From Geomonas subterranea (lineage in GTDB: Bacteria; Desulfobacterota; Desulfuromonadia; Geobacterales; Geobacteraceae), in the NCBI RefSeq assembly GCF_019063845.1, contig NZ_CP077683.1, positions 1,922,001 to 1,986,000 on the forward strand: a DNA stretch of 64,000 nucleotides, read 5' to 3'. Shown here in pieces: positions 44,897-52,691 of this stretch (position 1 is its first letter; every line of letters begins with the position of its first letter). The notes below the pieces were generated by a model. The model was not told the origin of the DNA and made no database searches. It saw only the letters and a program-made list of their open reading frames with translations. The translations under genes and the position numbers were made by a program.

Positions 44897-44942
44897 CCCC
44901 CCCGAGGAACCGGCCTATGGCTTAGCTCCCGGGGGCTTCCTT
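44897..44942 (+). terminator. Hairpin downstream of the unknown gene
   Basis: CCCCCCGAG (about 44899-44907) pairs with CTCCCGGGGG (44928-44937). The T tract is poor (CTTCCTTTCC), so a weak terminator or structured tail. Confidence 0.4.
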
Positions 44943-45049
44943 TCCCGCCGCTGCGTCAAGTTCTCTACAAATACGCCCCCGGTGTCCCCCGCCTCTCCTT
45001 TTCTATTTTGAAATGCCTCACGATAGTGAGGCGTACCCATCCCAACTGA

Positions 45050-45435
45050 ATTGATGACCATCGCAACAATGTTGATGACCATCGCAACAATGTTGATGAC
45101 CATCGCAACAATGTTGATGACCATCGCAACAATGTTGATACCCATCACAACAATGTTGATACCCATCGCAACAATGTTGATGACCATCGCAACAATGTTG
45201 ATGACCATCGCAACGATGTTGATGACCATCCCAACGATGTTGATGGTCGTCCCAACAGTGTTGATGACCGTCGCAACAATGTTGATGCCCATCCCAACAA
45301 TGTTGATGCCCATCCCAACAATGTTGACACCCATCCCAACAATGTTGATACCCATCACAACAATGTTGATACCCATCAACAACAATGTTGATACCCATCA
45401 ACAACAATGTTGATACCTATCGCAACGGTTTCCCC
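45050..45435. repeat. 21-bp tandem repeat array, about 18 units
   Basis: The unit reads GATGACCATCGCAACAATGTT with variants at GACC/ACCC/GCCC and at CGC/CCC/CAC. Each unit contains CAACAATGTTG, a 5-bp inverted repeat around one base. Two units near the right end are 22 bp. Frames on both strands are open (products rich in MTIATML on plus, NIVAMVI on minus) simply because 21 is a multiple of three; no RBS or gene-like context supports them as coding. Confidence 0.85.
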
Positions 45436-46060: not shown

Positions 46061-46849
46061 ATGCCATGTCCTGAAGTTGTTCTACTGGTAGAGGGAGATT
46101 TTGACGCGAAAATTGTGAAGAGCCTTTTCACTGCAGCTAATTTCCCACTTAATAAGATAGAAATACACTGCGCAAAGGGCAAACATAACATTAAAAAATT
46201 ATACTATGAACTATCTTTCAATTCGAGAAAAAAATTTGCTGTCTTAGTTGATCTCGATTATCACAGCAACTTTGAACCTGAAGAAATGGCGAGGAATGAT
46301 CTTCACTTAGATGAAGCAGTCAGTGTGTTCTGCGCGGTCCCGACAATTGAAGCCTGGCTATTTGCTGATATTGACGCCGCCAGGAAAAAGGTTAGAAATA
46401 AAAAGAGAGGCGAGGAATTACTTAATAGAATTCCGTTGCCCGACGAAATACCATACCCAAGGCATCTAGCGCAAAATTTGTTCACATTGAATGAAAAGTT
46501 TGAAATGATGGCATGCGATATTGATTTAAATGTAGCTACATCTAGGTCACCATCGTTGAGAAAGTTTATTGAAGGTATAGGCAATCTTCTAGGTTTAGAG
46601 GTAATGCCATTGCTAGGTAAATGTTTTGAAAGAAGCGTGGGACGAGACCTATTTTGTAATCTACTTGATGAAGTCGCGCCTCCAGATGCAATCATTTACA
46701 AAACATTAGACGGAAAACAAATAACTGCCAACGAAATGGTAAGAAATGTGAGAGAGGGTACGGAATTAGGCTATCAATATTCGTCCGATCTACTTAGGGT
46801 TGCACGAGATTTTATTGCTCGTGAAGCCAGAAGAGGCGACCGTAAATGA
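46061..46849 (+). CDS. TOPRIM-like protein (DUF4276/DUF4435-type), defence candidate
   Basis: 262 residues, visibly AT-richer than the chromosome. The N-terminus VVLLVEGDFDAKIVKSLF (Glu11) and FAVLVDLDYHSN (Asp64, Asp66) form the E...DxD pattern of TOPRIM nuclease/primase folds. VPTIEAWLFAD at 93-103 is the IEAWLLAD-like motif common in DUF4276-type proteins of defence loci. C-terminal part helical. GAGGTG lies 8 bases before the ATG. First gene of a three-gene operon; its stop overlaps the next ATG (ATGA). A role as nuclease or nucleotide-processing effector is inference. Confidence 0.68.
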   Translation: MPCPEVVLLVEGDFDAKIVKSLFTAANFPLNKIEIHCAKGKHNIKKLYYELSFNSRKKFAVLVDLDYHSNFEPEEMARNDLHLDEAVSVFCAVPTIEAWLFADIDAARKKVRNKKRGEELLNRIPLPDEIPYPRHLAQNLFTLNEKFEMMACDIDLNVATSRSPSLRKFIEGIGNLLGLEVMPLLGKCFERSVGRDLFCNLLDEVAPPDAIIYKTLDGKQITANEMVRNVREGTELGYQYSSDLLRVARDFIAREARRGDRK

Positions 46850-47481
46850 TAATTTTTTCCACCAACTTTGATGAACAAACGCTTGCTTGCCACAACATGA
46901 TACAAAATCTAAATGTCGGCAGTGCAAAAATATTGAGTGCTGGAGATGCTGTCAAGATCACTCTTGAAACTGAACTTAGTGCCGCACCAGGTAATATTTT
47001 TGCCATGACGCATGGTAGGACAAATGCTTTAATAGGCAACGATTCAAATCCAGCCATTGACCTACAAAATTCTGTGATTTTAAAAGACCTAACTATTTTC
47101 GCGTTTGCCTGTCATACCTCTGCTATTTTAGGAAAAGAAGTTTCTGGCATTGGGGGAACCTGGTTTGGGTACATTGGTCCAATTGGGTGTCCAGACTCGA
47201 AAGGTGATGGGCTTGAGATATTCAAGCCAATTTTCCAGTTCATCTATGACAATTATCAGCATGTCAGATCAGTAGCACAATGCAATCAGTTCATTTCCGA
47301 TTTAAAAACGCTATGTGATCTTGCAGAAGAGCAGGTCGATGCTATTTTATTCACATCTGAAGATGTTGGGTTATCGTCGTTTTTATGCTTAAAAAATACA
47401 TGGGAACGGTTAAGGGTATGGATAGCTAACGAAGCAACCTCTATCGCACATCCGAATGCGACAGAACCCTTAGTTTTTTGA
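46846..47481 (+). CDS. Caspase/CHAT-like cysteine protease candidate
   Basis: 211 residues. IFAMTHGRTNALIGND places a His-Gly pair at residues 56-57 at the end of a hydrophobic strand; ILKDLTIFAFACHTSAILGKEVS places Cys89 after the next such strand, followed by GGTWFGYIGPIGCP. A His-Gly and an A-C-x-(T/S) cysteine about 33 residues apart on adjacent strands is the arrangement of caspase-like and CHAT peptidases. The remaining 110 residues are helical. It overlaps the TOPRIM-like gene by four bases and is followed by the SIR2-like gene. Assignment is from motif pattern only; no overall family was recognised. Confidence 0.5.
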   Translation: MIIFSTNFDEQTLACHNMIQNLNVGSAKILSAGDAVKITLETELSAAPGNIFAMTHGRTNALIGNDSNPAIDLQNSVILKDLTIFAFACHTSAILGKEVSGIGGTWFGYIGPIGCPDSKGDGLEIFKPIFQFIYDNYQHVRSVAQCNQFISDLKTLCDLAEEQVDAILFTSEDVGLSSFLCLKNTWERLRVWIANEATSIAHPNATEPLVF

Positions 47482-47531
47482 TTGTAAATTTAGGGACATC
47501 ATGTTGCCACTAGAGTGGGAAGGAACTAATT

Positions 47532-48557
47532 GTGAAGCAAAAGGTTGTTGATGACAGGCTACTACACTGGGATGAGCTAAAAAATGATGATTGGAGTGCT
47601 ATCTTATTGGGGAATGGTTTTAGCATAAACATTTGGCCAGACTTTAATTACCATTCGTTGTTTGAACTAGCAGAATCCGAAGATATTGATTTCCCATTGA
47701 AGGCAACTGCAGTTGAATTGTTCCAAAAGAAGGATACTACTAATTTTGAACAAATTTTAAACCTATTGTTAGGTGCAATACTCGCTGATGAAGTTATTGA
47801 AGGTAATCAGAGATTAAAACTTAGAAGACTTTACAAAGGCATTCAAAAATCGCTCATTAGCGCAGTACAAAAGTCTCACGTATCATCAGACAGAGTCAAT
47901 ACTGAACATATATCTACTGAGATGTCAAAATACGACACAGTATTTACTACAAATTATGATCTAATTCCATACTGGTCAATAATGGATCACAATACCAGTA
48001 AGTTCAGAGACTATTTCTGGGGCCAAGGAAGTTCGTTTGATGAAAACAACACTAACCTCTGGAGCAAATGCACAAGGATACTTTATCTACACGGTGCATT
48101 GCACATTTTAGAGGAACTGGAAGGTGAAACAGTTTGGAAAAATACAGCAAACGAGTTAAACCTCCTTGATCAGTTTCCGGAGACGTTCAGTTCTTTACAA
48201 CGACCATTGTTTATAACTGAAGGTGATGCAAAACAGAAACTGGCAAGAATATACAGCTCCGGATATCTCAAATTTGCCTATGATGAGCTTAGAGGACATG
48301 ATGAATCATTGGTGATACTTGGCCACTCACTTGATCTGGATTATGACAAACACCTTATTGATGCTATTGCTGAATGGGACAAGCAAAGAGTTGCGATTAG
48401 CGTGTGGCCAGGAATGCCTAGTCCCGACATAATAGAATTCAAGTCACGAATAAACAAACATTTAAGTAAGCACAAACTGCTCTATTTTGATTCAACCTCC
48501 CACCCACTAGGCATCGAAAGCCTCAATTACCGAAATAAACATCACAGTATGATCTGA
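47532..48557 (+). CDS. SIR2-like (DUF4917) protein, possible NAD-depleting effector
   Basis: 341 residues from GTG 47532 (AAGGAAC upstream). Seen: ILLGNGFSINIW (25-35; GxG-type nucleotide loop), TVFTTNYDLIPYW (137-148), RILYLHGALHI (182-192, the His of SIR2-type active sites) and VILGHSLDLDYDKHLIDAI (261-279). These are the DUF4917/SIR2_2-like motifs. Bacterial SIR2-domain defence proteins degrade NAD upon phage infection; that activity is plausible here but not shown. It ends the three-gene operon and converges on the reverse transcriptase gene with 27 bases between stops. Confidence 0.75.
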   Translation: MKQKVVDDRLLHWDELKNDDWSAILLGNGFSINIWPDFNYHSLFELAESEDIDFPLKATAVELFQKKDTTNFEQILNLLLGAILADEVIEGNQRLKLRRLYKGIQKSLISAVQKSHVSSDRVNTEHISTEMSKYDTVFTTNYDLIPYWSIMDHNTSKFRDYFWGQGSSFDENNTNLWSKCTRILYLHGALHILEELEGETVWKNTANELNLLDQFPETFSSLQRPLFITEGDAKQKLARIYSSGYLKFAYDELRGHDESLVILGHSLDLDYDKHLIDAIAEWDKQRVAISVWPGMPSPDIIEFKSRINKHLSKHKLLYFDSTSHPLGIESLNYRNKHHSMI

Positions 48558-48584: not shown

Positions 48585-49652
48585 TCAGTCCCATGGTATA
48601 GATTCATCCAGATGATCAACCGGCCGCCAAATCGACGGCAAAATTGGAGTTAGTTTTTTCCTAATTTCTTGGTTTCCATTGTTCAACTTTATCCTGCTTG
48701 AACCAAATTTAGGACCCAAAAGTTTTCGTCTAGTTTTTGTTGCCATCACGCGTTGCAACTTAAAACGTTCTTCTATTTGTCCTGCGGCGCAGAGTTTACC
48801 TATGAGCTTGTCATAAAGGGAATCAATAAGAAGCGGTTCCTCTGTCTCTGCTATTTGCAACGTTAATTTGTGAATGGATTGGTGCATTCTATTACAAACT
48901 TTCACAATGCATCCATCAACGATAACACCCGTGATTTCCTTTACCTGGCCAGCTCTAAAATGCTTGTCTTTATGCGATCTCATTCCAAACTTGTTAATCA
49001 TTGGCTTTACACGGTCATAAATCCACTTCTTGGATATTCTATCACCTGAAAAGGTCAAATCATCTACATAGCAGGTAAAAGTTACACCTGCTTCTTGGCT
49101 AAGATCGTGAAGAGCGTCAAACATTTCTTTACAAGACAGATATGCAAGAACCTGGCTGAGTGAACTGCCAGTGGGTATGTGGTCGTCGCAAGTTGTAATA
49201 TTTGCAAGGATGGCTGATATATCAGGTTCACACTTCATCGTTTCGCGGAAGAAGGTGACGACCTTTGCTCTAGTGACTGAAGGGTAAAACTTTTTGATAT
49301 CGAGAGTATAGGCTTCTTTCCTGTCGCGATGCGCACGTGCATTAGATAAGTAGGAACAGCCTTTGACTCCAGAGTGTAAATAACTAGGTAGGTGTATTTT
49401 CTTCAACAATCTAAAAAGACGATTATGTATGGGCAGTAAAACGCGAGATGGCACTTCAACAGGGCGAAGTTTCCCCTTACTCATAATTGGAAATTTACGG
49501 TAAGGAGAATCAGTCCGCATAATGGATTTCAGGTCCGAAAGCGAACCCAGATTAAGAAGGGAAATCAGCTTCTTTTTGCTGCGTAATTTGTACAACGGCG
49601 ACTGAGTTATGTCGTATTTAATGTCATAGTTTTTTTGCGCCAAAGTGATCAT
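48585..49652 (-). CDS. Retron-type reverse transcriptase
   Basis: About 355 residues (start at ATG 49652; a TTG three codons upstream is also possible; both overlap the HTH gene). Motifs: LRPVEVPSR (RT0/1), SNARAH (retron NAxxH), LDIKKFYPSV (catalytic Asp), PTGSSLSQVLAYL, CYVDDLTFSG (YxDD core) and EITGVIVDG (retron VTG-like). NAxxH plus VTG-like residues separate retron RTs from group II intron, Abi and DGR RTs. C-terminal 110 residues form the thumb and RNA-binding part. Coupled to the upstream Cro-type HTH gene by overlap. Confidence 0.85.
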   Translation of the reverse strand: MITLAQKNYDIKYDITQSPLYKLRSKKKLISLLNLGSLSDLKSIMRTDSPYRKFPIMSKGKLRPVEVPSRVLLPIHNRLFRLLKKIHLPSYLHSGVKGCSYLSNARAHRDRKEAYTLDIKKFYPSVTRAKVVTFFRETMKCEPDISAILANITTCDDHIPTGSSLSQVLAYLSCKEMFDALHDLSQEAGVTFTCYVDDLTFSGDRISKKWIYDRVKPMINKFGMRSHKDKHFRAGQVKEITGVIVDGCIVKVCNRMHQSIHKLTLQIAETEEPLLIDSLYDKLIGKLCAAGQIEERFKLQRVMATKTRRKLLGPKFGSSRIKLNNGNQEIRKKLTPILPSIWRPVDHLDESIPWD

Positions 49653-49935
49653 CCTTAGCAACTACCCATTCCATGATCTGTTTAAGTTTAGACGCAAAGC
49701 TTAAACGAAATCTTCCTGAGATGGTGTTGTCTTCGAGATTTTCAGAAAACAACATGAGTGATGACATTGGAATATTGAAGAATTTCGAGTATTTATTTAA
49801 TAACTCTATAGTCACTTCTTTTTTACCGGTTTCAATTTCTGATAAATAGGAATTGGAAACACCTAAATCGCTTGCGAGGTGACCTTGCTTAATATTGTGA
49901 TACTGTCTTATAAGTTTTAATGCCTGGCCGTTCAT
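49624..49935 (-). CDS. Cro/C1-type HTH protein in the retron-like operon
   Basis: 103 residues. LIRQYHNIKQGHLASDLGVSNSYLSEIETGKKEVTIELLNKYSKFF is a full XRE HTH (residues 8-53); the C-terminal half is helical. AAAGGA lies 8 bases before the ATG. It overlaps the RT gene by about 30-40 bases and starts 39 bases after the 46-residue ORF. In known retrons a small HTH partner can be the regulator or part of the effector; its target here may be the promoter at 50381-50409. Confidence 0.8.
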   Translation of the reverse strand: MNGQALKLIRQYHNIKQGHLASDLGVSNSYLSEIETGKKEVTIELLNKYSKFFNIPMSSLMLFSENLEDNTISGRFRLSFASKLKQIMEWVVAKDDHFGAKKL

Positions 49936-49974: not shown

Positions 49975-50115
49975 TCATTTGTCATCATGGTGCTCAAGCA
50001 ACTTACAGATTAGGTACCCCAACCGTAAGACCATCTTGAGTAATGATGGGTTCCTCAGAACCATTCTTAGGAACTTAGTGATCTCCTGCCACAGACTGTC
50101 AAGCCATTTTATCAT
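49975..50115 (-). CDS. Small 46-residue cationic amphipathic ORF in the retron-like operon
   Basis: Starts at ATG 50115 with a strong AGGAGGTG SD 5 bases upstream and ends at TGA 49977-49975. The product begins MIKWLDSLWQEITKFLR and ends LICKLLEHHDDK; the middle (LRMVLRNPSLLKMVLRLGYL) is an amphipathic helix rich in Leu with spaced Arg/Lys. It lies between the structured leader and the HTH-RT pair, all on one strand. Such short cationic/hydrophobic peptides are typical toxins, but this is inference. Its SD is inside a stem formed by the leader (see the leader entry). Confidence 0.6.
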   Translation of the reverse strand: MIKWLDSLWQEITKFLRMVLRNPSLLKMVLRLGYLICKLLEHHDDK

Positions 50116-50122
50116 TTTTCAC

Positions 50123-50374
50123 CTCCTGTAGTAAGCATTGCTTGTCGCAATACTCCTCGCCGTTACAGGAGACAGAGTTCTGTGGTAGTTTTTACCCCTA
50201 CTATTTGCCTCTTCGCGTCGCCGCGAAGAGGCTCTCCCATCAACCACTCAGGGTCATCCGACTGACATCCGGGTGCCATGCATGGCCGCAGGAAAAGGCA
50301 GAGGGCTTACTTAATCCTCCTCGGGGGGCAATACCCCCAGTATTCTAAGGCGAGTAATCTCCGTTCTTGACAGT
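50123..50374 (-). ncRNA. Structured leader, candidate retron msr-msd RNA
   Basis: A roughly 220-nt gene-free stretch between a strong promoter and the 46-residue ORF. On the minus strand it has: a possible a1/a2 pair (CTCGCC of 50349-50359 with GGCGAG of about 50149-50161); GGGGG-TATTG-CCCCC; GAGG/CCTC; the palindrome GCCATGCATGGC; a perfect 11-bp stem GCCTCTTCGCG/CGCGAAGAGGC with loop GCGA (about 50206-50233); and CTCCTGTA/TACAGGAG (50164-50171 with 50123-50130), which pairs with the SD of the small ORF. Position, length and structure fit an msr-msd RNA, but the exact borders and priming G are not determined. Confidence 0.5.
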
Positions 50375-50380
50375 GGCTGG

Positions 50381-50409
50381 ACTATACAAAACATTTAGCT
50401 CGAAGTCAA
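50381..50409 (-). promoter_or_regulatory. Promoter of the retron-like operon
   Basis: On the minus strand TTGACT (complement of 50404-50409), 17-base spacer, TATAGT (complement of 50381-50386). Start expected near 50374. Confidence 0.75.
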
Positions 50410-50816: not shown

Positions 50817-51374
50817 TCAGTCAGGCAAGTACCGATACAAGGTATCACGGCTGATTCCCAACGCCTTAGCAACCTGCGCCTTCGGCTCGCCTGCTGCAAC
50901 CCTGCTGGCGATCTCTGTTATACGTTCTGGGGTCATCTCCTGCTTCCGTCCCTTGTAAGCACCCGCTGCCTTCGCAAGCTGAACCCCTTCCTTTTGCCTT
51001 TCCTTGATGATAGAACGCTCGAACTGTGCGAAGGCTGCAAGCATGTTAAGCATAAGCTCGCTGAAGTGGTTGTTCTCTTCGCTGGTGAAGCACAGGTTCT
51101 CCTTCACAAACTTGACTGTCACACCGCGACCTACCATGTCCTTAACAAGAGCGCGAAGATCGTCAATGTTGCGGCCTAGGCGGTCCAGGGAGTGTACAAG
51201 AACTGTGTCGTGCTCCCTTACGTATTCGAGCATGGCCTGCAGCTGGGGGCGGTTAGTGTCCTTCCCTGACAGCTTATCCTCAAACACCTTGTCCATCTTC
51301 AGGCCGTCAAGCTGACGCTCAGTGTTCTGCAGGATCGAACTCACCCGACGATAACCAATCACCTTTCCGCTCAT
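50817..51374 (-). CDS. Serine recombinase, resolvase/invertase (Hin/Tn3) family
   Basis: 185 residues. N-terminal resolvase domain: IGYRRVSSILQNTERQLDGL with catalytic Ser near residue 12, HSLDRLGRNIDDL (arginine site RxxR) and FAQFERSIIKERQKEG. C-terminal HTH of about 45 residues (MTPERITEIASRVAAGEPKAQVAKALGISRDTLYRYL). Typical plasmid or transposon resolvase length. Divergent from a larger serine recombinase with 285 bases between; this gap may contain the res/crossover site. Confidence 0.92.
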   Translation of the reverse strand: MSGKVIGYRRVSSILQNTERQLDGLKMDKVFEDKLSGKDTNRPQLQAMLEYVREHDTVLVHSLDRLGRNIDDLRALVKDMVGRGVTVKFVKENLCFTSEENNHFSELMLNMLAAFAQFERSIIKERQKEGVQLAKAAGAYKGRKQEMTPERITEIASRVAAGEPKAQVAKALGISRDTLYRYLPD

Positions 51375-51659
51375 GCTCCCTCCCTGTTGTGTGACGCACT
51401 GTACGATTTACATCTAACATGTAGCCACTTCGGCGTCAATCACATTTTTCGTACATGCAAATCTGACGCAAAATGTGTCCGACAACAGTGTACGCCTGAG
51501 GTATACCCTAATCAGACAGGCATGTAACTGCAAAAGTTTCCACCCCTGCAAAACCTTCCACAAGTAGTTAATATCAAACGAAAAAAGCTATACACCCGGT
51601 TGGGGATATGGTATGACGACCTCCTCTTAGCAGATAGCATATCTCATGGAGGTACAGCT
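51375..51659. promoter_or_regulatory. Divergent region between two serine recombinases
   Basis: Contains direct and inverted TGTACG/CGTACA-type words (for example GTGACGCACTGTACG near 51393 and TTTTTCGTACATGCAAATCTGACGC near 51446) and ACGCAAAATGTGTCCGACAACAGTGTACG, consistent with resolvase-binding subsites. Confidence 0.4.
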
Positions 51660-52691
51660 ATGATTGTACGGGTAGTGGTAGAGAGTGATGAGGCTTCTGA
51701 TAAAGCAGTTGGGCCGAAGACAATAGATAAATTTCCTGATAACGGTGATGGCAAGTCGGTAAGAAAGGCTGCGTTGGCAGTCCTGATCGAGAAGGGGCAG
51801 GTTCCTGCCGATGCAAAGATCGGTTGGCTCACTAATCGGGGAAGGCGTAAGGGGTGTAGCCCTGAAGCCCATTTATTTTTGGATGCTATCAACAATGCCG
51901 GATGTCGTGCTTACAGTTATTATAAAAAGTTTGGAAAGCAAAGCCCCAAAAGGGGACAAGGAGGCGAACAGCCACATTTGTTTGTCTCATACTTGCGGGT
52001 ATCAACACGCGAGCAGTGGGCTGCAAAAGTGGGACTTGAACGACAAAGGTCCAGAAACATTGCCTACATCAAAATGTGCGGTGGTAAACTGCTCAAGGAA
52101 TATACAGAGGCTGCAAGCGGTCGAAAAAAAGATCGTCCTGAGGTCATGGAAGCGATAAGACATTGTGAAGCCACAGGCGCGACATTGATTGTCGAAACTG
52201 TAGACAGGCTAGCGCGTAACGTCCACTTCGTCACTGGAGTTCAGGAATCTAATTTTCCGCTCATTATCGCCACAGAGCCGAATGCTACCCCCGAGAGAAT
52301 TGTAGAACTCGCAATCTATGCGCAGTACAAAGCAGATCAGCAAAATCAAATAACTAGAGATTCCCTTGCCATATCACGAAAACCGAAGGGAGTAAAAGGC
52401 ACAGAAAACCTGTGGAAGAATCCTGAGGCTGTCACCAAGGGGCGTATGCGTGGTGCGGCAGCAATGAAGTCAAAAGCTGATAAGAATACTATGATGATAA
52501 TGCCTTACCTGCAAAGGTATCAGGACGAGGGCACTTCTACTTTTACCGCTATGGCAATGAGGTTGAATGCTGACCAGGTATTAACCGCCAGAGGAAAGCG
52601 AGGAGGTTGGACTGGGCAGGCCGTGAAAAATTTATTAGCACGGGCCGATGCTCTTGCTCCACAAGGCAGGGGAGACGGGAAATTGAGGTAG
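51660..52691 (+). CDS. Large serine recombinase-like protein with novel N-terminal extension
   Basis: 343 residues from ATG 51660 (SD GGAGG). A recombinase catalytic domain begins at about residue 108: FVSYLRVSTREQWAAKVGLERQR (catalytic Ser in RVST), VDRLARNVHFV. The C-terminal part LNADQVLTARGKRGGWTGQAVKNLLAR is the 'recombinase' DNA-binding motif. Ahead of it lie about 105 residues with no recognised domain. Too short for a full phiC31-type integrase (over 450 aa) and lacking a zinc ribbon with coiled coil. It may act with the neighbouring resolvase. Confidence 0.75.
   Translation: MIVRVVVESDEASDKAVGPKTIDKFPDNGDGKSVRKAALAVLIEKGQVPADAKIGWLTNRGRRKGCSPEAHLFLDAINNAGCRAYSYYKKFGKQSPKRGQGGEQPHLFVSYLRVSTREQWAAKVGLERQRSRNIAYIKMCGGKLLKEYTEAASGRKKDRPEVMEAIRHCEATGATLIVETVDRLARNVHFVTGVQESNFPLIIATEPNATPERIVELAIYAQYKADQQNQITRDSLAISRKPKGVKGTENLWKNPEAVTKGRMRGAAAMKSKADKNTMMIMPYLQRYQDEGTSTFTAMAMRLNADQVLTARGKRGGWTGQAVKNLLARADALAPQGRGDGKLR

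Follow-up and report, generated by a model that had tools for sequence, protein, structure and literature searches.

A leader fold that reaches into a small toxin-like open reading frame at a type VI retron locus of Geomonas subterranea: a computational analysis

Does a leader stem that covers the Shine-Dalgarno sequence of a small gene keep its product off, and what part would a reverse transcriptase (RT) encoded just downstream play in this? The question was raised by the minus strand of a 64,000-nucleotide stretch of Geomonas subterranea (contig NZ_CP077683.1, positions 1,922,001 to 1,986,000), referred to as the window, in which a 46-residue open reading frame (ORF) is followed by a helix-turn-helix (HTH) gene and an RT gene. 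The locus has the genes of a type VI retron, a conserved small ORF, leader helices that reach into this ORF, and an operator. We lean towards the view that the leader fold, together with reverse transcription, would keep a toxin-like peptide off, and that the retron RNA and the peptide message would be one overlapping RNA.

The stem itself was borne out. As the original prediction had it, CTCCTGTA pairs with TACAGGAG on the minus strand over 8 perfect pairs, and most of the AGGAGG of the small ORF lies within the 3′ arm (coordinates of all features are collected in Table 1). The inner hairpin said to cap the stem exists, but is longer than claimed, with GAGTATTGC facing GCAATGCTT and two G-U pairs. 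When the 60-nt leader was shuffled with the Shine-Dalgarno region kept, a perfect 8-bp stem over at least 4 Shine-Dalgarno bases arose in 56 of 20000 shuffles. Folding of the predicted transcript, from its inferred 5′ end through the ORF, with RNAfold gave a probability of 0.58–0.71 for the outer stem and 0.86–1.0 for the inner hairpin, and the six Shine-Dalgarno bases were unpaired with a probability of 0.05–0.41 in the nested ensemble.

RT_VI and HTH_VI were the top PADLOC matches of the RT and of the protein encoded before it, and the locus can therefore be classed, by its protein matches, as a type VI retron. The RT reads NARAH at the NAxxH motif of region X, YVDD at the YxDD core and ITG at the opening of region Y; residues N, A, H, Y, D, D, T and G were invariant in 8 of 8 aligned RTs. 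The ITG in place of VTG is a V-to-I variant known also from RT-Vch2 (PMC6868368). Rfam gave nothing near any gathering score. Among 18 other genomes of the genus, one had an RT match, and this was remote (30% identity).

Relatives with type VI-like RTs were drawn from plasmids (seven loci fetched), a phylum sample (RT in 17 of 395 genomes at E ≤ 1e-45), GTDB contigs scanned with alignment A1 (154 relatives, cut to the best 80; a first contig scan with a single RT as query found no match) and IMG/VR (32 loci; of two more viral scans, one yielded a weak locus and the other none). Of 137 loci, 112 proved to have an HTH gene when searched with a model made from the window and the seven plasmid loci. 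A scored script search placed a small basic and hydrophobic, uncatalogued ORF ahead of this gene in 106 of the 112. Six loci were dropped from the small-ORF set: L065, L067 and L071, in which a small ORF was seen by eye in another frame, and L036, L037 and L044, in which longer ORFs occupied its place. After removal of similar leaders 62 non-redundant loci were left, and 14 loci outside the discovery set were used as hold-outs. The PADLOC HTH_VI model was rejected as a finder of type VI retrons, matching 378 of 395 genomes and 14 of 14 controls.

Across these relatives the reported stem, termed HP4, was conserved as paired (z 9.3). It had at least 7 consecutive pairs at 50 of 62 loci, against 17.2 after permutation, and at 10 of 14 hold-outs, against 3.9. 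A helix on at least 3 Shine-Dalgarno bases reached at least 8 pairs in 23 of 62 relatives (permuted mean 4.7) and at least 6 pairs in 37 of 62 (permuted mean 26.0, permuted maximum 39), and the mean length of the covering helix lay above 5000 of 5000 permutations. Covering of the Shine-Dalgarno sequence is commoner than chance across relatives, yet not universal. Over the family, the ribosome site was costlier to open with the cognate leader than with foreign leaders at 52 of 62 loci (9.67 versus 7.51 kcal/mol, p 1.2e-9).

Two further helices join the leader to the coding sequence. For the first, a1:a2, the test windows were set from an operator-like palindrome at the upstream end of the locus. 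A slightly looser form of this pattern had an exact match upstream of 46 of 62 relatives, compared with a mean of 0.02 and a maximum of 1 in shuffles, which were of mono-nucleotide rather than dinucleotide type. A promoter scan gave 2 sites where shuffles predicted 1.2 and was weak by itself; the promoter is supported by its conserved position between the operator and a1, which in most listed loci starts about 41 nt past the operator end, at the promoter-predicted transcript start. The complementarity of a1 and a2 was first spotted by eye in the leaders, and other loci had different letters and the same relation. Retron RNAs have 5′ and 3′ ends that are complementary over about 8–30 bases and flank msd (PMC6868368); the computed a1:a2 helix joins the ends of the proposed RNA over 9 pairs. 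With the 5′ segment placed from the operator, a1:a2 scored z 5.2 over permuted pairs in 52 loci (0 of 20000 permutations), and five control windows gave z values of 0.7, 1.2, 2.0, 1.0 and 1.3. Pairing of the leader with coding nt +10 to +38, which had been meant as a control, scored z 10.8 and uncovered the second helix, b1:b2, in which the segment before the stem (b1) pairs with the ORF (b2).

As these earlier windows had been found by looking, a systematic map was made, in two frames, of all 667 pairings between 24-nt windows. Its four top cells were the leader hairpin HP3 (12.2), b1:b2 (11.7), a1:a2 (10.9) and HP4 (10.5); 32 cells scored at least 3.5 and none scored −3.5 or below. Two cells at 4.3 corresponded to a hairpin after a1 and to a long-range pairing between the segment that follows a1 and the 5′ side of HP4. 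The latter, CTCGCC (50354–50349) with GGCGAG (50161–50156), was weakly conserved (39 of 52 loci versus 27.4 permuted, 1 of 5000 permutations as high), and its probability in the nested fold of the window was 0.07–0.08.

At least 7 consecutive b1:b2 pairs were found at 53 of 62 loci (18.2 permuted) and at 10 of 14 hold-outs (3.3 permuted), and at least 7 consecutive a1:a2 pairs at 29 of 52 loci (permuted mean 6.3). None of 5000 permutations reached the means for b1:b2, a1:a2 or HP4, or those for b1:b2 and HP4 in the hold-outs. Flat controls included two of three windows for b1/b2, with 13 of 62 versus 13.2 and 9 of 62 versus 10.9, and the one window for a1, with 10 of 52 versus 7.1. Under strength-ranked scoring, a1:a2 had at least 6 pairs in 42 of 52 loci and b1:b2 at least 7 in 51 of 62. 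In a MAFFT alignment of 10 loci (A3), b1:b2 was paired in all 90 cells, with changes on both sides in 5 of its 9 pairs, and 0 of 500 shuffles scored as high; sliding the b1:b2 partner lowered pairing to 30–64%. A3 was derived from A2 (12 alphaproteobacterial-type loci) by adding L091 and leaving out L073, L088 and L090, whose b1 had been put one column off in A2; by script, these three form perfect 10-bp b1:b2 helices.

Within the family a2 lies at about nt +7 to +27 and b2 at about nt +17 to +40 of the small ORF, and a2 directly preceded b2 in 32 of the 33 loci in which both helices were clear. Since a1 precedes b1 and a2 precedes b2, the two helices cross, which makes a pseudoknot. It ties codons 3–13, approximately, to the leader, with the Shine-Dalgarno sequence and ATG between HP4 and a2. 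As the helices end inside the small ORF, its Shine-Dalgarno sequence, start codon and first 12 or so codons would belong to the retron RNA. The original prediction had also raised the possibility that the 3′ arm is part of msd. This gains conditional support: the a1:a2 stem, of the kind that flanks msd in retrons, appears to close within the small ORF, so that the 3′ arm, the Shine-Dalgarno sequence and the ATG would sit in the template.

The make-up of the encoded peptide, and its place in a defence operon, suggest a toxin role. Across the 62 loci it has 45–65 residues (median 56), a net charge above 0 in 61 (median +8) and a best 17-residue hydropathy of 0.58–2.23 (median 1.59; 1.46 for the window peptide). 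Its first half is variable and its second half retains a hydrophobic pattern. Searches with the window peptide found nothing in PADLOC, Pfam or NCBIfam, and in PHROGs only weak matches (E 0.069 and 0.27); the peptides of five relatives had no NCBIfam match, and Pfam matches only far below cut-off. In six inspected loci (L060, L061, L062, L064, L080, L106) there was no HTH gene and the small ORF stood directly 5′ of the type VI-like RT; there the ORF is therefore a steadier partner than the HTH gene. In L085 and L105, also lacking an HTH hit, the small ORF was accompanied by a divergent HTH-like gene.

Taken together as a mechanism, the transcript would begin at the operator-adjacent promoter and its 5′ end, a1, would fold onto codons 5–7 of the small ORF (a2), with b1 pairing with the codons next after a2. 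The reported hairpin would hide the Shine-Dalgarno sequence, and the fold would most likely prevent peptide synthesis. The RT may use the same fold, with copying that would start just before a2 (codon 4) and run back across the ATG, the Shine-Dalgarno sequence and HP4; in retrons, priming begins at or beside the paired-end stem and RNase H takes away the template (PMC6868368; PMC8989520). With RNase H, every round of copying would eliminate the message start and leave complementary DNA (cDNA) antisense to the message. The HTH protein would repress the operon. A phage that disturbed the RT, the RNA fold or the cDNA would then allow the basic, hydrophobic peptide to be translated, to the harm of the cell. 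We infer the translational repression, the multicopy single-stranded DNA (msDNA) and its start point, the action of the RT as antitoxin, the toxicity and the phage trigger. A more specific version, which we put forward tentatively and consider somewhat improbable as it stands, makes the msDNA itself an antisense antitoxin: the RT would prime where the 5′ end of the toxin message is paired and copy the ATG and Shine-Dalgarno sequence into msDNA, RNase H would remove the message start, and the msDNA would pair with further messages, so that a phage inhibiting the RT, RNase H or msDNA would let the toxin be translated.

Several points weigh against a fold that represses the peptide and is copied by the RT. 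All support for it is computational. At the window locus, nested folding puts the opening of the ribosome site at 3.8 (full transcript) to 4.1 kcal/mol, which amounts to a weak predicted block, and the 4.1 is below the foreign-leader mean of 5.4 kcal/mol, which puts the window among the family exceptions; because the nested model omits the pseudoknot, this low cost was regarded as a weak point, not a refutation. The longest b1 run at the window, GTCTCCTG (50173–50166) with CAGGAGAT (50088–50081), would compete with the reported stem. The CCACAGA:TCTGTGG pairing had a nested-ensemble probability of 0.03, and nested folding cannot show b1:b2 alongside a1:a2. An unrestricted duplex scan of leader versus ORF start was weak, placing 8% and 11% of loci among the top 5%, and a second such scan gave median ranks of 21.5 and 20 of 61; the a1:a2 signal requires operator-anchored windows, initially chosen from examples by eye. 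The hold-out counts cover b1:b2 and HP4, not a1:a2, for which pairing in operator-bearing hold-outs was clear in some (L186, L182) and poor in some (L180). An Enterococcus locus is without b1:b2. Some cells internal to the ORF (nt +24 to +160, 62 loci) also score 4–5.4 in the map and are unexplained. Finally, the canonical TAGC around the priming guanosine, expected as such or as a known variant at the end of the a1 stem, does not stand out by eye in the leaders, in which a GGAGAT-like motif follows a1; no count was made.

The fold might also act without the RT. In a block purely in cis, as in type I toxin messages, the RNA alone would suffice and the RT would copy another segment, with msd elsewhere, for instance at HP3. 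Intramolecular structure often makes type I toxin messages inactive from the outset (PMC11228461), and no other helix of the leader is as strong as HP3, which resembles an msd hairpin. We consider this arrangement unlikely, though a serious contender, as the a1:a2 stem, whose counterpart marks the ends of msd in known retrons (PMC6868368), closes within the ORF. The sign of the control could instead be reversed, with the pseudoknot turning translation on by melting or displacing the Shine-Dalgarno stem, and the RT, or cDNA on a1 or a2, closing it. The active conformer of timP is the pseudoknotted one (PMC11228461), and at the window the b1 candidates share bases with the 5′ arm of the stem, which may make b1:b2 and the stem mutually exclusive. 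An initiating ribosome, however, must cover the a2 and b2 codons, and in the family at large the ribosome site is harder to open with the cognate leader, which makes an activating pseudoknot quite unlikely.

That a2 and b2 are coding would suit an ORF that is not a toxin, in which ribosomes over a2/b2 decide whether the non-coding RNA (ncRNA) can fold for reverse transcription, with the peptide acting as cofactor or leader peptide. The variable first half and the kept hydrophobic pattern of the second half fit this idea, but length, charge and the hydrophobic part are kept across loci beyond the needs of a leader peptide, and we rate it very unlikely. As for chance or shared composition, G+C content alone does lift scores somewhat (map mean z 0.66), and permuted counts go up when permutation is done within G+C bins. 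Even so, among 38 loci with ORFs less than 45% identical, such permutation left counts of 30 of 38, 19 of 32 and 32 of 38 for the three helices, with 0 of 5000 permutations for each. With the covariation in the alignment and the hold-outs also against it, a compositional by-product appears extremely improbable.

The retron types were reportedly defined in the classification of Mestre et al. 2020; in PADLOC, type VI is a class name, and the present locus resembles that class in matching RT_VI and HTH_VI with the HTH gene directly 5′ of the RT. The matched PADLOC models cover the RT and HTH protein only, whereas a small ORF and an ORF-overlapping ncRNA are proposed here as added parts. A literature search by title and abstract, with Mestre et al. 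2020 outside its scope, found neither part described for type VI retrons. With the Eco1, Eco2, Eco8 and Sen2 retrons the locus shares RT motifs, a structured leader with complementary ends and a toxin-antitoxin logic (PMC6868368; PMC12409349). In those retrons, RT-msDNA restrains the effector protein (PMC12409349; PMC12948488), whereas here restraint is proposed on the message that encodes the effector. Type I toxin-antitoxin systems such as timP/timR, hok/sok and tisB/istR1 also combine a small basic or hydrophobic peptide with a structured leader and a hidden ribosome site, and timP and tisB have a pseudoknot, like the window fold. Their antitoxin, however, is an antisense RNA, whereas here an RT lies in the operon (antisense RNA was not searched for). 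DRT2 is likewise a defence RT tied to a small toxic ORF, but it makes its gene through repeated copying; here the ORF is already genomic, and copying would strip its start from the message.

In known retrons, then, msDNA restrains an effector protein; here one stretch of RNA appears to hold both the would-be msDNA template and the beginning of a toxin-like message, an overlap conserved over many proteobacterial and some cyanobacterial loci. If this is true, type VI retrons gain an effector, the reading of the RNA into a gene is explained, and reverse transcription becomes direct translational control.

Table 1. Features of the retron locus, in window coordinates
Feature	Positions	Strand	Remarks
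HP4, reported stem	50123..50171	-	outer arms 50171-50164 and 50130-50123; inner arms 50155-50147 and 50141-50133
Shine-Dalgarno AGGAGG of small ORF	50122..50127	-	5-7 nt ahead of ATG, from sequence
Operator-like palindrome, TTCGCTNNNAGCGAA	50416..50430	-	exact match; lies just 5′ of the -35 box and probably binds the HTH protein
Sigma-70-like promoter, TTGACT-17-TATAGT	50381..50409	-	10/12 consensus matches
a1, ACTGTCAAG	50366..50374	-	inferred transcript 5′ end; 9 perfect pairs with a2, ensemble probability 0.64-0.95
a2, CTTGACAGT	50095..50103	-	ORF nt +13..+21, codons 5-7; pairs with a1
b1, CCACAGA	50179..50185	-	pairs with TCTGTGG in ORF; picked by position beside a2, as in relatives
b2, TCTGTGG	50089..50095	-	ORF nt +21..+27; assignment uncertain at window locus
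msr-like segment	50301..50354	-	CTCGCC 50354-50349, then small hairpins; z cells 4.3 (hairpin) and 4.3 (long-range pairing)
HP3, perfect G+C-rich leader hairpin	50207..50232	-	z 12.2; sequence varies among relatives
46-residue ORF, toxin-like peptide	49975..50115	-	ATG starts at 50115; net charge +3, hydrophobic second half; matching ORF in 106/112 HTH-bearing loci
HTH (Xre-like) gene of type VI retrons	49624..49935	-	PADLOC HTH_VI E 8e-36; Pfam HTH_3 E 1.4e-10
Retron reverse transcriptase	48585..49661	-	PADLOC RT_VI E 5.5e-82; Pfam RVT_1 E 1.2e-8; NAxxH, YxDD and ITG motifs

An 85-nt stretch of the minus strand (50204–50288), comprising HP3 and the sequence preceding it, is found again at another place in the genome at 94%; a genus relative without an RT match carries 65 nt of it at 95%, beside a terminator-like hairpin (L002; L173). 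The element was considered as a mark of cDNA insertion, an idea rejected as unsupported, since this relative without a matching RT has part of it next to a terminator.

Among the best 80 of the 154 relatives in the GTDB contig scan, L060 to L064 were the closest RT matches to the window. The order small ORF, HTH, RT was also seen in P2-like, Mu-like and other phages (L176, L177, L178, L179, L180). On Microvirga and Pseudosulfitobacter plasmids a TIR-domain gene directly follows the RT (L054 3360–4319; L187 3246–4211).

Two serine-recombinase-like genes lie beside the retron at 50817–51374 (minus strand) and 51600–52691 (plus strand), suggesting a mobile island. On the other side, convergent genes within 46061–48557 (plus strand) face the RT and may form a defence cluster: one with weak DUF4276/OLD-like TOPRIM matches (46061–46849), one without a match (46846–47481) and one encoding a DUF4917 protein that matches the PADLOC candidate PDC-S21 (47532–48557, E 3.1e-94). 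Further along, at 44915–45413, several reading frames have ORFs made of short tandem repeats, the mark of a DNA repeat array.
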